NCBI RefSeq assembly: GCF_027158005.1
Contig: NZ_JAPVLQ010000001.1
Span: forward strand, 186,001-250,000
Length of the DNA stretch: 64,000 bases
Source: Rhodococcus sp. H36-A4
GTDB lineage: Bacteria > Actinomycetota > Actinomycetes > Mycobacteriales > Mycobacteriaceae
Direction: 5' to 3'
The first letter of the stretch is position 1, and each line of letters starts with the position of its first letter. The notes under the pieces are model-generated. The model searched no databases and was not told where the DNA came from. It saw only the letters and a program-made list of their open reading frames with translations. Positions 36,427 to 41,072 of this stretch are shown piece by piece. The translations under genes and the position numbers were made by a program.

Positions 36427-37491
36427 TCAGACGCCCCCGCCGAACAAAGTTCCGAGCAGGTAGGTCGCGCCGGCAGCTCCGTAACCGATGGCCAATTGAC
36501 GCAGCGCTCGCTTGACGGGTGGCCCGCCACTGAGAAGGCCCACGATGAGCCCAGTACAGATCAACGCAATTCCAACCAGTACCGACGCAACCACAAGTGC
36601 TGCAACGCCTTCCATGCCCACGAGGTACGGCAACACTGGGATGACCGCGCCCGATGCGAAGAAGCAGAAGCTCGCGATTGCAGCCCCAAAACCCGTGCCG
36701 ACGGATTCGTGGGCGTCGGCCGCTGGACCCATGTCGTCGTCTCCCGTCAGCCTCTGCAGTACCTTCGATGCTTTCGACTCGGCCTCGTCCGAGCTCATTC
36801 CACGTGCCCGATAGACCAGTGCCAATTCGTTGGCGTCGACGTCGAGGTTGTGCAATGCATCGCGCGCTCCCAGGTCGGGTGACGAGGCTTCGAGCAGTTC
36901 CCGCTGCGAGCGCACCGAGACGTACTCCCCTGCCCCCATCGACAACGCCCCTGCCAGCAGGCCAGCGAGTCCCGTCAGCAGCACAATGTGGTTGGAGACC
37001 CCGCTGCCGCTGATGCCCAGCACCAAAGCGAGGTTGCTCACCAACCCGTCGTTCGCGCCGAACACTGCTGCACGGAACGTCCCCGACAACCTGTTGCGCC
37101 CACGTGCGGCCAGAGCCCTGACCACTTCGGCATGGATCTGCTCGTCCGCGATCATCGCTTCGGTCGCGTCGCCATCGAGTGCATACGGTGACCTGGACTC
37201 TGCCCGCTGCGCCAACGCCAGCACGAACACCGAACCGAACCGCCGCGCCAGCACTCCCAGCAGTCTCGTCCGGAGATCGCCCCTCAGAGGCGTCCCGACG
37301 CGATCGCCCAGCAGTGTGCGCCAATGTCGCTCGTGCCGACCCTCGGCTTCGGCCAGGGCGAGAAGGATTTCTCGCTCCTCACCGCTGCGACGCTCAGCGA
37401 GATCGCGGTAGACAGCGGCCTCTGCCAACTCATCGGCGAGGTAGCGTCGCCACCGTTTGACGTCTTTGGCTGACGGGGCAGGTTGGACCAT
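36427..37491 (-). CDS. Ferritin-like/VIT1 fusion iron-manganese transporter (MbfA-like)
   Basis: A 354-residue protein that joins an N-terminal rubrerythrin/ferritin-like domain (E and E-x-x-H ligands in YRDLAERRSGEEREILLAL followed by AEGRHERHW) to a C-terminal VIT1/CCC1 transporter of five membrane helices starting near 130 (FGANDGLVSNLALVLG). Proteins of this design, such as MbfA, export iron or manganese and protect against H2O2. It lies 19 bases after rpmF on the same strand, so it may be co-transcribed with the zinc-starvation ribosomal operon. Confidence 0.9.
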   Translation of the reverse strand: MVQPAPSAKDVKRWRRYLADELAEAAVYRDLAERRSGEEREILLALAEAEGRHERHWRTLLGDRVGTPLRGDLRTRLLGVLARRFGSVFVLALAQRAESRSPYALDGDATEAMIADEQIHAEVVRALAARGRNRLSGTFRAAVFGANDGLVSNLALVLGISGSGVSNHIVLLTGLAGLLAGALSMGAGEYVSVRSQRELLEASSPDLGARDALHNLDVDANELALVYRARGMSSDEAESKASKVLQRLTGDDDMGPAADAHESVGTGFGAAIASFCFFASGAVIPVLPYLVGMEGVAALVVASVLVGIALICTGLIVGLLSGGPPVKRALRQLAIGYGAAGATYLLGTLFGGGV

Positions 37492-37510: not shown

Positions 37511-37678
37511 CTACCTCGGATCGTAGACACCCATTGACACTGCCTTGACCAACCTGCGTGGCACCCGAAAACTATTGCCGTCTACCCGCACGGTCACAAG
37601 GTCCGGTACCACTGCCTTCCACTGCGCCCGCCGATTGCGAGTGTTGGAGCGCGACATCTTTCGTTTCGGCACGGCCAT
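37511..37678 (-). CDS. rpmF: Ribosomal protein L32, zinc-free form
   Basis: A 55-residue bL32: [20 protein letters not shown], then a basic tail ending SMGVYDPR. The MAVPKRK-x-S-R-x-N-T-R start is diagnostic. It has no Cys at all, so it lacks the CxxC zinc ribbon of some L32s. It starts 3 bases after the rpmE2 stop, so it belongs to the mrf-rpmE2-rpmF operon. Too short for length-limited ORF lists. Confidence 0.94.
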
Positions 37679-37681
37679 GTT

Positions 37682-37942
37682 TCAGGCACCTTTCCTGGTT
37701 CGACGTCCATAACGCTTTTCGAACTTCTCGACGCGCCCCTGGGTGTCCATGATTCTCGTGGCACCGGTCCAGAACGGGTGAGATTCGCTGGTGACGTCGA
37801 CAACCACGAGCGGATAGACGACGCCGTCCTCCCACTCGACATCGCGGGCGGAGGTGATGGTGGAGCGGGTGAGGAACTGCGTTCCCGTACCCGCGTCCCG
37901 AAACACCACCGGGTGGTAGTCAGGGTGGATACTCTTTTTCAT
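37682..37942 (-). CDS. rpmE2: Ribosomal protein L31 type B (zinc-independent)
   Basis: An 86-residue bL31-[17 protein letters not shown], then [16 protein letters not shown] and the basic C-terminus [10 protein letters not shown]. The absence of CxxC distinguishes it from zinc-binding type A; type B replaces it on ribosomes during zinc limitation. Its ATG overlaps the mrf stop (ATGA, 37939-37942), so the two are translationally coupled. Confidence 0.96.
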
Positions 37943-39201
37943 TCTGTTGCCTCTCTGTTGACGTCCGAATAAGGGGATTGGATTCTGTCGCAGGGATCTT
38001 CGTGACTGTTTCCGAATGGGTCCGCCCACGTGATCCACTTTTCGCGGTTCAGCATTTCCTCGTCGGACACCAGCGCCCACCGCAGTGTTCGATCGATCTC
38101 CGACGGATCGGCAGTGTGGACCAGCACCACGAGCGAGGTGTCACGATCGCCGAACTCCTCATCCCACCGCAGTGCTGCCATCGCCCGCCTTGTGAAGTCG
38201 GCACGGTTCAGTTCACTGGAGTTCATCGCCGCCAGCCACTTCCCCGCGCTTGCGACGTGCAAGCCCCCACCTGCTGATTCGACCCACAGAGCCTCGTTCG
38301 GTTGCGTCGCCACCCAGGCTCGCCCACGGACACTGACGACGCCGGCGAGCAGTACGTCGACGGCCTCGTGGAGCCGCTCTGGGTGGAACGGACGTGATGC
38401 GGTGAACTCGACGAGCGAAACGCCACAGTCCTCGGTGAGTGGCGGCTGCCCTCGCAGCAGCGGTGAGTGCGCATCGGACACCGCACCGCGTCGCGCGTCG
38501 AAAGGCACTGCGCTGAGCAGCATTTCACCGTCGACGATGGAATCGACATCGATCCACGCAACGGGGGTGCCTGGCGCGAGCCGCGCCAGGACTGCGGCGA
38601 GCGGTCCCCGATCCCAGCTTTCGACGTCGAAGCCTGCCGTGACGACGAGCGCGTCGGCGTACTCGACCTGCCCGACGACCAACTGGGCAAGCGTCCGCTC
38701 ATCGTCGTGACTGGCTGGCGCACCCCGGTCGGCGAGGGAATCGTCGCCGGTCGCGTCGTCGAGCCACGTGGCCGCGTCGAGACAATTGATGACGGCTTCG
38801 ATGCGGACGTCACGCGAGGCCGGTCCGTCGACCCGACCGATGATGCCTTCGACGACGACGTGACGGATCGCCCAGCACAACATCGCAGGTTCGAGAGTCG
38901 GGTCCATGGCGAGAACGATGCGGTGGGTGGAACTGCGGTTCGAGAGCGTGCGGAGCAACGGCAGCAGGTCTTGGCGCAGAGTGCAGGAAACGCATCCGTG
39001 CGCGAGTTCGAGGATCGTCTCGCGCGGCTGCTCTCCCGTCGTATAGATGGTTCTGCGCACGACACCCTCGCGTACGCGGTCGAGGTCGTGGCGCACGGTG
39101 ACGGTTCCCTCGGTGAGAAGTGAGGTCACCACCGCATCCATGGCTCCGGTCCAGCCGGACACGAGTACCACCGGTATGCGGCGGTCCGTGGGGAGATTCA
39201 C
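37939..39201 (-). CDS. mrf: Mrf-like COG0523/CobW-family protein of the zinc-starvation cluster
   Basis: A protein of 420 residues (430 from ATG 39231). It has the COG0523 architecture: [10 protein letters not shown] at the P-loop position, the metal-binding HGCVSCTLR (a CxxC form of the family CxCC) and the C-terminal CobW-C domain with the [15 protein letters not shown] end. The Walker A GxxGxGK(S/T) is lost (GWTGAMDAV), which makes normal nucleotide hydrolysis doubtful. Its place with alternative L31/L28/S18 genes identifies it as the homologue of mycobacterial Mrf, which recruits the hibernation factor Mpy to zinc-free ribosomes. GTG 39201 with AAAGGG upstream is preferred, because a Zur-like palindrome overlaps ATG 39231. 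Confidence 0.88.
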
Positions 39202-39215
39202 TGAAGCCCTTTCTT

Positions 39216-39230
39216 CGACAATGATTGTCA
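39216..39230. promoter_or_regulatory. Zur-like operator for mrf
   Basis: GACAATGATTGTC is a perfect 13-bp palindrome with a central base, of the AT-rich Fur/Zur operator type. It overlaps ATG 39231 and lies directly upstream of the Shine-Dalgarno for GTG 39201, the usual operator place. Zur binding is inferred from form and neighbouring genes. Confidence 0.6.
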
Positions 39231-39267
39231 TTGCGTCCTAAGGCACGCTACATTCGTCGTGTCCCGT

Positions 39268-39288
39268 TGTCGAATACGATTTTCATTA
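39268..39288. promoter_or_regulatory. Zur-like operator for rpmB2-rpsR2
   Basis: On the minus strand it begins TAATGAAAATCGTATTCGA, very close to the mycobacterial Zur box (TGAAAATCGTTTTCA core). It is 20-40 bases before the rpmB2 start, in the short gap between the divergent zinc-free ribosomal operons. Confidence 0.7.
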
Positions 39289-39307
39289 CCGATAGAGAGG
39301 GGCGCGT

Positions 39308-39544
39308 ATGTCCGCGCATTGCCAAGTGACGGGGCGAAAGCCGGGATTCGGCAAGTCGGTTTCGCACTCACACGCCCGAACCAGCAGAAGGTGGGACCCC
39401 AATATCCAACGGAAGACGTACTACGCCCCCAGCCTCGGCCGGCGCGTCACGCTGACCCTGTCCACCAAGGGCATCAAGACCATCGACCGCGACGGCATCG
39501 ACGCCGTCATCACCCGGATCCGCACCCGAGGGCACAAGATCTGA
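39308..39544 (+). CDS. rpmB2: Ribosomal protein L28, zinc-independent paralogue
   Basis: A 78-residue bL28: [20 protein letters not shown], with SRRWDPNIQ and the [16 protein letters not shown] end. Zinc-binding L28 begins with a CxxC (as in C-D-I-C); here only one Cys remains (HCQVTG), marking the zinc-free paralogue. GAGAGG lies before the ATG and a Zur-like box just upstream. The stop overlaps the next ATG (TGATG). Confidence 0.95.
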
Positions 39545-39768
39545 TGGCCATCATCACCAAGCCCCCCAAGCATGATTCCGGGAGCACGGAGACCCGAGTG
39601 GCACTGCCACGTTTGCCGCATGTTTCGAGTCCGGTACGATTGCGCAATCGCGACGCTGCGGATGGACCTCCGCGCGGTTACCTGCGGAAGTGTGGACTCT
39701 CACGCATCGACATGTGCGAGCCCGCGCGCCGCGAGGAGCTGCATGGCGTCCATAAGTCGAGCTGGTAA
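39544..39768 (+). pseudogene. rpsN2: Degenerate ribosomal protein S14 (rpsN2 remnant)
   Basis: A 74-codon frame coupled to rpmB2 by TGATG. The C-terminal 50 residues are uS14: SSPVRLRNRDAADGPPRGYL and RKCGLSR, ending GVHKSSW. The first 25 ([19 protein letters not shown]) do not resemble S14, and about 27 residues are missing against the usual 101. Normally fixed positions are changed: RKFGLSR to RKCGLSR and the basic R-V-R-V-R stretch to IDMCE. The frame is open, so a shortened product is possible, but loss of the rRNA-binding N-terminus makes function unlikely. Confidence 0.8.
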
Positions 39769-39782
39769 GGGAAAAGGTAGAG

Positions 39783-40037
39783 ATGGCAGTCAAGAGAGCA
39801 CCGTCGAAGAAGGTCCGCGCAGAGGTTGGCCGTCGACCCAAGAAGAATCCGTTGAACGCCGCCAAGGTCACCACGGTGGACTACAAGGACATCAACCTTC
39901 TTCGTCAGTTCATTTCCGACCGCGGCAAGATTCGTAGCCGTCGCGTCACCGGCCTCACGCCGCAGCAGCAGCGTCAGGTCGCCGTCGCAGTGAAGAACGC
40001 TCGTGAGATGGCATTGCTGCCGTTCACCAGCCGCTGA
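39783..40037 (+). CDS. rpsR2: Ribosomal protein S18, zinc-independent paralogue
   Basis: An 84-residue bS18: [20 protein letters not shown], then the core [19 protein letters not shown] with [20 protein letters not shown] and the end MALLPFTSR. It has no Cys, unlike the CxxC zinc-binding S18 of actinobacteria, so it is the zinc-starvation form. AAAGGTAGAG lies before the ATG. It follows the degenerate rpsN2 by 14 bases and ends the operon at an intrinsic terminator. Confidence 0.95.
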
Positions 40038-40050
40038 TCACAGTCTTTTC

Positions 40051-40087
40051 AGAAAGGCCACGCATCCTTCGGGTGCGTGGCCTTTCT
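40051..40087 (+). terminator. Intrinsic terminator after rpsR2
   Basis: 17-bp arms (40051-40067 and 40071-40087; AGAAAGGCC...GGCCTTTCT) around the loop TTC with one G-T pair. The T-rich right arm doubles as the T tract. It ends the rpmB2-rpsR2 operon. Confidence 0.88.
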
Positions 40088-40148: not shown

Positions 40149-41072
40149 ATGTCCGGAGTTCTCGAAGGCTTCACGGTCATCTTCGTCGTCATCGCGCTGG
40201 GATACATGCTGGCGCGACTCGGGGTTCTCGGTGACCACGGCCAATTCGTCCTGAGCCGACTCGTATTCTTCGTCGCGACCCCGGCTCTGCTGTTCGTCAC
40301 GATGGCGACGTCGGATCTCGCGGTTATTCTCTCGCCGACCCTCGCAGTCGCCGGGGTTTCCGCGCTGGTGGTCGGATCCATCTATCTTCTCATCGCCAAG
40401 CTGGTGTCGAAACGACCTACCCCGGAAGCGACGATCGGCGCCCTCGCCTCGTCGTATGTCAACGCCGCGAACCTCGGAATCCCGATCGCCGTCTACGTGC
40501 TCGGCGACGCAACTTTCGTTGCCCCACTCCTACTCTTTCAGATCATGATCTACTCGCCGCTTGCGCTCACGATTCTCGACATCTCGACGATGGGCAAGAA
40601 GGCGTCACTGCGCAACATCCTCATCGCGCCGTTCAGAAATCCGATCGTGCTTGCCGGCGGACTCGGCCTCGCTCTGTCCATCACCGGACTCGAACTGCCC
40701 GAAGCCCTGATGCAACCCTTCGAACTCGTCGCGGGAACCGCCGTCCCCGGTGCATTGCTGGCCTTCGGTCTGTCGCTGTACGGGACCCGGGTACTCCAGA
40801 AGGGCGTCAGTCCGCGGCGAGACGTAGCACTCGCCACCGGCTTGAAGATGATTCTGCAACCCGTCCTCGGCTACCTGTTGGCTCGGCTCCTCGGCGCGGA
40901 GGGACACGAGCTTTTCGCCATCACCGTCATCTCCGCTCTCCCCACCGCGCAGAACGTGTTCGTCTTCGCCAGCCGATACAACCGCGGCGTCGTCATGGCC
41001 AGGGACACAGCCTTCGTGACAACACTTCTCTCGATCCCTGCCATCGCACTCGTCACGGCATTGTTGGCCTGA
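40149..41072 (+). CDS. AEC-family permease
   Basis: A 307-residue inner-membrane transporter with about ten helices in two inverted halves. The N-terminal GFTVIFVVIALGYMLARLGVL, a central ASSYVNAANLGIPIAVYVLG (the N-x-x-N-x-G motif of the crossover region) and the end AITVISALPTAQNVFVFASRY are typical of the auxin-efflux-carrier (AEC) family. Bacterial members carry malate, malonate or auxin-like acids; the substrate here is not known. Confidence 0.9.
   Translation: MSGVLEGFTVIFVVIALGYMLARLGVLGDHGQFVLSRLVFFVATPALLFVTMATSDLAVILSPTLAVAGVSALVVGSIYLLIAKLVSKRPTPEATIGALASSYVNAANLGIPIAVYVLGDATFVAPLLLFQIMIYSPLALTILDISTMGKKASLRNILIAPFRNPIVLAGGLGLALSITGLELPEALMQPFELVAGTAVPGALLAFGLSLYGTRVLQKGVSPRRDVALATGLKMILQPVLGYLLARLLGAEGHELFAITVISALPTAQNVFVFASRYNRGVVMARDTAFVTTLLSIPAIALVTALLA

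Follow-up and report, generated by a model that had tools for sequence, protein, structure and literature searches.

A derived, partial form of the zinc-starvation ribosomal protein cluster in a small Rhodococcus clade

The genome of Rhodococcus sp. H36-A4 (4.65 Mb, 29 contigs) was analysed in a window of 64,000 nucleotides (contig C11, 186001-250000), the positions of which are counted here from its first letter. At 37511-40037 the window holds a divergent cluster of genes for ribosomal proteins of the kind made in zinc starvation. Its minus strand carries L32, L31 and mrf; its plus strand carries L28, S18 and, between them, an S14-like frame of 74 codons. The gene names used below (rpmB2, rpsN2 and the like) are labels assigned in this analysis. 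The following genes and features were recognised:

37511..37678, minus strand: rpmF2, zinc-free L32; 55 residues, no cysteine; TIGR01031, 39.2 bits against a cut-off of 22.6
37682..37942, minus strand: rpmE2, zinc-free type B L31; 86 residues, no cysteine; NF002462, 130.7 bits against a cut-off of 86
37939..39231, minus strand: mrf, ribosome hibernation factor-recruiting GTPase MRF; NCBIfam equivalog NF047431, 574.5 bits against a cut-off of 375
39213..39235, plus strand: predicted Zur box 1; 24.8 bits; aligned in relatives
39225..39254, plus strand: promoter-like pair TTGTCA-18-TACATT, its first hexamer within Zur box 1; one found by the scan, shuffles giving a mean of 0.3
39268..39290, plus strand: predicted Zur box 2; 32.1 bits; 3' of the promoter-like pair
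39308..39544, plus strand: rpmB2, L28 of the alternative type; 78 residues, one cysteine
39542..39552, plus strand: deletion scar; the L28 stop overlaps a start codon, and the L33 gene and S14 codons 3-29 are gone
39544..39768, plus strand: rpsN2 remnant, S14; open frame of 74 codons, MA followed by S14 residues 30-101; two cysteines; relaxed selection
39783..40037, plus strand: rpsR2, zinc-free S18; 84 residues, no cysteine
40051..40087, plus strand: inverted repeat 3' of S18; 17-nt arms, one G-T pair, no T run; read by eye

On the evidence of its sequence, the stretch 37511-40037 is a Zur-type alternative ribosomal protein (altRP) cluster in a derived, partial form. A first-pass annotation of this DNA had described cysteine-free or cysteine-poor L31, L32, L28 and S18 genes with mrf around two Zur-like palindromes, and all of these are present, L28 having one cysteine and the other ribosomal proteins none. 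The window mrf passes the cut-off of the equivalog model for MRF (mycobacterial protein Y recruitment factor), which gives it its identity. The zinc-free L28, L33, S14 and S18 genes that stand together in an altRP operon are found here with L28 and S18 intact, S14 as a relaxed remnant and L33 absent, no L33 gene lying between L28 and the S14 frame, as the first-pass annotation had also seen. We regard this form as derived because 32 of 37 genus relatives have the full complement.

Within the genus sample of 37 genomes, two L33 genes and a full-scoring second S14 were found in those 32; the remaining five, the same for both genes, have one L33 and a degraded second S14, which scores 54-66 bits where the others reach at least 86 bits. 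These five deletion genomes (G000, G020, G021, G029 and G030) form one clade in a tree built from the unlinked L33 locus of 30 of the 37 genomes, where the split has a support of 100. Alignments of the cluster locus took in 20 genomes, namely all five deletion genomes and 15 of the 32 intact ones. Measured against the intact neighbours G034, G032, G019 and G036, a net loss of 249 nt, in frame, is common to all five, and the overlap of the L28 stop with the next start mirrors the position of the L33 start in intact relatives. The L33 start and the S14 start lie in similar sequence in G034 and G032 (GATGGGCAAGA and GATGGCCAAGA), so that a two-step path, in which L33 was lost between the similar starts and S14 codons 3-29 afterwards, is as possible as a single event. 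The comparison with intact relatives bears out the claim that S14 has lost 27 residues from its N-terminus: the remnant is MA joined to residues 30-101, with residues 3-29 gone. It also indicates that the short S14 is not the norm of the genus, given the full-scoring second S14 in 32 of 37 genomes. The draft state of the genome, in 29 contigs, might raise the thought of an assembly or sequencing artefact at the L33/S14 junction, which is hardly conceivable: the same junction recurs in each of the five genomes, G029 being assembled as a single contig, within surrounding sequence that has diverged, and an assembly error is ruled out by a junction common to all five.

The remnant matches positions 29-101 only of the 101 positions of the S14 model, at 63.9 bits against a cut-off of 77, and does not qualify as a long zinc-free S14, defined by a full-length match above the cut-off together with purifying selection. 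Neither does it carry the CxxC...CxxC of the type Z (zinc) S14; its cysteines, at residues 50 and 58, make no CxxC pair, which rules out that the remnant is gaining a zinc ribbon through them. Among the five genomes the variable sites of the remnant fall at codon positions 1/2/3 in the numbers 10/14/13, compared with 23/19/65 for intact S14 in 15 genomes. Estimation of omega (the ratio of non-synonymous to synonymous substitution rates) by maximum likelihood with our own script gave 0.917 for the remnant in the crown of the clade, and omega = 1 was not rejected (p=0.8). Branch models on 18 of the 20 aligned genomes (the two others are not in the tree) gave 0.100 for intact S14, 0.684 for the clade stem and 0.877 for the crown; equality of crown and intact S14 was rejected (p=2.6e-10) and a crown value of 1 was not (p=0.69). 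Crown omega is 1.20 in residues 30-57, against 0.13 in intact S14, and 0.56 in residues 58-101, against 0.06, equality being rejected for both parts (p=1.6e-4 for the latter). Of 48 positions invariant in the 15 intact S14 proteins, 15 have changed somewhere among the five and 5 in every one of them, with F77, R85 and P94 in this last group. Because of these omega values and the changes at invariant positions, the S14 protein is most likely no longer selected, or selected weakly in its last 44 residues. By the usual marks of a pseudogene, the loss of amino-acid constraint is observed and a disrupted frame is not, the frame being open in all five genomes with 27 residues deleted.

An alternative is that the 74-residue product is a working, shortened zinc-free S14 that enters the ribosome. 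We consider this unlikely, given an overall omega of 0.88-0.92 that rises to 1.2 in residues 30-57, a roughly ninefold weaker constraint on residues 58-101 than intact S14 shows, and changes in all five genomes at the three invariant positions named above, in addition to the missing residues 3-29. What speaks for a working protein is the open frame in five of five, the last 44 residues, which are still S14-like and slow in the crown (their omega of 0.56 is below that of the 5' part and not significantly different from 1, p=0.28), and the length of the zinc-type S14 itself, about 61 residues.

Some observations on the remnant sit badly with a drifting S14. First, the remnant frame is open and without an indel in five of five deletion genomes. 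The intergenic ratio predicts about 3-4 indels where there are none (P about 0.02-0.05); the reference, 20 indel events to 192 variable sites in a collinear flank of 20 kb with coding regions called by our own script, is a rough one, as gaps in its first segment may reflect unequal ends of the compared stretches. Second, the absence of a stop together with the kept start has a P of about 0.23 in a simulation that assumes 45 neutral changes over five lineages, and the lack of indels and stops jointly comes to about 1% under crude assumptions. Lastly, the 3' part of the remnant is slow: it varies at 9 of its 138 sites, the 5' part at 29 of 84. S18, which lies beside this slow part, is slow as well. 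The open frame on its own was set aside as weak evidence of function, since a further frame of the region is largely open too at this high G+C content.

These observations could tentatively be explained, though we would not expect it, by a dead remnant protein whose frame is kept as a translated spacer, along which ribosomes pass from L28 to S18 so that stops and frameshifts are selected against. The idea would refine the view of a drifting S14 protein and is not its opposite, and in that capacity, too, we hold it as a minority possibility. It would account for a frame open in five of five without indels despite an omega near 1, and it agrees with the overlap of the L28 stop with a start at 39542-39546, with the position of S18 as the most constrained gene of the cluster, and with the 14-nt gap before S18, which has no variable site among the five. 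The indel argument, however, comes down to 3-4 expected events and a small local reference, and a purine-rich stretch before the S18 start may give S18 its own ribosome-binding site. Moreover, S18 persists in three genomes of other genera (G232, G113 and G082) in which frameshifts or a stop disrupt an S14 relic upstream of it; a fourth genome (G158) has an open relic. The fuller proposal that selection preserves the frame as a translated linker from L28 to S18 and that low-zinc ribosomes are hybrids, with zinc-free L28, L31, L32 and S18 beside zinc-binding L33 and S14, is rather doubtful.

The other genes of the cluster behave differently from the S14 remnant. Crown omega is 0.169 for L28, 0.106 for L31, 0.306 for L32, 0.206 for mrf and about 0 for S18, all significantly below 1 (p at most 0.026, the value of L32, the weakest case). 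The first-pass description of a cluster that is losing parts therefore holds for L33, which is gone, and for S14, which is relaxed, and does not extend to L28, L31, L32, S18 and mrf, which show no loss of constraint; its suggestion that the loss is only partial agrees with purifying selection on the other zinc-free genes. As these five genes have kept their constraint, the whole cluster does not appear to be on its way out. A decay of the entire zinc-starvation cluster, with the other genes at an earlier stage, is very improbable: the missing L33 and relaxed S14 would fit it, as would the single L28 in 49 of the 51 genomes from other genera whose only L33 scores as Cys+ (zinc-type), but partner-gene omega of 0-0.31, each value significantly below 1, and conserved Zur boxes do not. 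The S18 protein does not differ among the five deletion genomes (non-synonymous divergence, dN, of 0), and its identity in 17 of 20 genus loci is 98.8-100%, whereas L28 has an identity of 80-90% outside the deletion clade. The cluster S18 (39783-40037) may serve outside zinc starvation.

Single genomes showed peculiarities in these partner genes. In G031 the mrf match (L050, 2836-4115) is in two pieces in different frames, and the gene may be frameshifted while the altRP genes look intact. G005, with one L32 match, is the only such genome of the 37 and may lack the zinc-free L32. On contig C1 of G026 two primary S18 genes of equal score are separated by about 49 kb, through duplication or an assembly effect, and G018 (690 contigs) gave no primary S18 match.

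The Zur boxes were scored with a matrix of 26 sites from 15 relatives with an intact cluster. The two boxes lie in the divergent promoter region, as in altRP clusters, at 24.8 and 32.1 bits; the next-best site in the 64 kb scores 6.5 bits and the best of five shuffles 7.8. Judged by eye, they resemble the Zur consensus printed in the excerpt of PMC7174638 at hand. Both are retained in all five deletion genomes, and the block CTACATTC of the promoter-like region is kept in 17 of the 20 aligned loci. With box 1 over the first promoter-like hexamer and box 2 after the pair, the predicted sites are arranged as would be expected for a repressor. The first ATG of mrf (39229-39231) is inside Zur box 1, and NF047431 aligns with the window mrf only from residue 18, which suggests that mrf probably starts further in than annotated.

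Profile searches of the genome placed the zinc-binding partners elsewhere. The only L33 in the genome carries CxxC...CxxC, and there are two S14 copies, one of the short CxxC...CxxC form and the cluster remnant. For L28, S18, L31 and L32 the cluster copy is joined by one copy with paired cysteines elsewhere, the Cys+ L32 and L28 on contig C23 and the Cys+ L31 on C29. The Cys+ paralogues that accompany an altRP cluster are thus found for L28, L31, L32, L33, S14 and S18. The first-pass annotation had left it conditional whether a normal zinc-dependent S14 and L33 are encoded elsewhere; both are, each with a four-cysteine zinc motif. It had also pointed to other rpmG and rpsN copies as decisive, and the search revealed no intact zinc-free pair elsewhere in this genome or the four other deletion genomes. 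No further L33 or S14 match at E<=0.001 was obtained in any of these five genomes, and a second zinc-free L33 or S14 elsewhere in them was on this basis rejected.

Taken together, we consider it highly probable that the cluster is an incomplete descendant of the actinobacterial Zur-repressed altRP/mrf locus, in which the ancestor of a small clade lost L33 and the 5' end of S14, S14 is drifting and the rest is maintained. By analogy with the family, Zur would sit on the two boxes and repress the cluster when zinc is plentiful, and zinc-free L28, S18, L31 and L32 would be made together with MRF as zinc falls. The loss in the ancestor of this Rhodococcus clade would have been in frame, in one event of 249 nt or in two; the shortened S14 frame would since have drifted under little or no amino-acid selection, a decaying gene that is still open, with the remaining swap genes of the clade maintained. 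With L33 lost, S14 relaxed and the partners maintained, the clade should therefore swap L28, L31, L32 and S18 and keep the zinc-binding L33 and S14; its ribosomes would then be hybrids at low zinc. Gene content thus suggests that the clade can probably remodel only part of its ribosome at zinc shortage, and we infer from the sequence Zur control, induction at low zinc and incorporation into the ribosome of the four remaining zinc-free proteins. The clade would also have lost the S14 fail-safe for new 30S assembly. Without a zinc-free S14, yet with zinc-free L28, L31, L32 and S18 maintained, it amounts to a natural test of which zinc-free ribosomal proteins are important; if such strains were compared with intact sister species under zinc shortage, the zinc-releasing role of the swap could be told apart from the fail-safe for assembly.

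The mycobacterial altRP operon consists, in the excerpts of the sources available, of L28-2, L33-2, S14-2 and S18-2 (MSMEG_6065-6068) with mrf (MSMEG_6069) and rpmE2 (MSMEG_6070), and is Zur-regulated (PMC5912738, PMC7174638); the latter source gives the Zur-controlled block, with mrf and rpmE2, for M. smegmatis. The window cluster shares with it the adjoining gene set, mrf, L31 and the Zur boxes; it differs in having no L33-2, in the relaxed 74-codon remnant in place of S14-2 and in an L32 gene adjoining L31 on the side where mrf lies. Some strains of M. avium have a truncated Zur-regulated altRP operon with two AltRP genes (PMC5912738, Dow and Prisic 2018, in excerpt), which is likewise a partial operon under Zur, although in another lineage, and the passage is silent on which two genes remain. 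For M. avium paratuberculosis a table in the available part of PMC7174638 gives homologues of S18, S14 and L33 and none of L28. According to the accessible text of PMC5007448 (Shin and Helmann 2016), rpmGC, the zinc-free L33 gene of B. subtilis 168, is a pseudogene that is still Zur-regulated, and rpsNB, the zinc-free S14 gene, is a fail-safe for new 30S subunits, without which growth in zinc starvation is linear. As described there, that strain resembles the Rhodococcus clade in having lost the zinc-free L33 while other alternative ribosomal proteins stay under Zur; its loss, however, is a frameshift in a separately controlled gene with rpsNB kept, whereas in the window clade L33 was deleted and S14 lost as well. 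Incomplete altRP sets are thus less unusual than the first-pass annotation had thought, with examples in print and further cases in our family survey. Searches of the open-licence literature listed no report of a clade-wide loss of L33 and S14 in Rhodococcus.

For the survey, 51 genomes outside the genus with a single Cys+-scoring L33 (E below about 1e-19) were picked by eye among 401 family genomes, so that some may have been missed; the identity of the Cys+ L33 and the choice of the altRP-type S18 were taken from scores except at eight loci that were read. L28 is present once in 49 of the 51 and twice in two (G053 and G353). S18 is present twice in 19 (17 of these among the 49 genomes with one L28) and singly in 32. 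A second S14-like match was obtained in seven: a full one in G353, four relics in G158, G232, G113 and G082, each directly upstream of an intact S18, and matches in G065 and G369, of which that in G065 is a stop-containing fragment of the zinc (Cys+) type (L098, 1943-2158) and that in G369, very weak, gave no match on follow-up. These counts hint that, after loss of the zinc-free L33, the S18 gene survives more often than L28 or a full S14.

At the G353 locus (L097, 1597-2453) L33 is cut to its first and last residues, and L28, S14, S18, mrf and L31 are present, which makes it an independent case of partial loss. The G053 locus (L096, 2125-3930) has kept L31, mrf and L28, which is followed by an unrelated long frame; the 2 kb read beyond L28 contain no L33, S14 or S18. 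A Zur-like site is present at both (19.3 bits at G053 and 13.9 bits at G353). At the four S14-relic loci, which come from two other genera, an intact altRP-like S18 stands behind the relic (L099, 2957-3208; L100, 2578-2826; L101, 2669-2917; L102, 2645-2893). Partial dismantling has therefore happened more than once, as G353, G053 and the relic loci indicate. The relic loci resemble the window in that a degraded zinc-free S14 immediately precedes an intact S18 of altRP-like type, and differ from it in that their 5-kb stretches contain no match to L28, L33, L31, L32 or mrf and no Zur-like site, although a matrix trained on the genus may miss the sites of other genera. There S18 seems to have outlived the cluster and may have left Zur control. 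Outside this set, genomes of the genera g3, g4, g5, g7 and g19 mostly have a single L33 that scores in the zinc-free range, with one genome each of g3 and g4 giving no L33 match; by their scores, these genera may live with a zinc-free L33 only.

In the window, the inverted repeat at 40051..40087 is a possible operon end, and the terminator scan listed none. The cluster is flanked by genes for a VIT-family protein (PF01988) at 36427-37491 and a membrane transport protein (PF03547) at 40149-41072.

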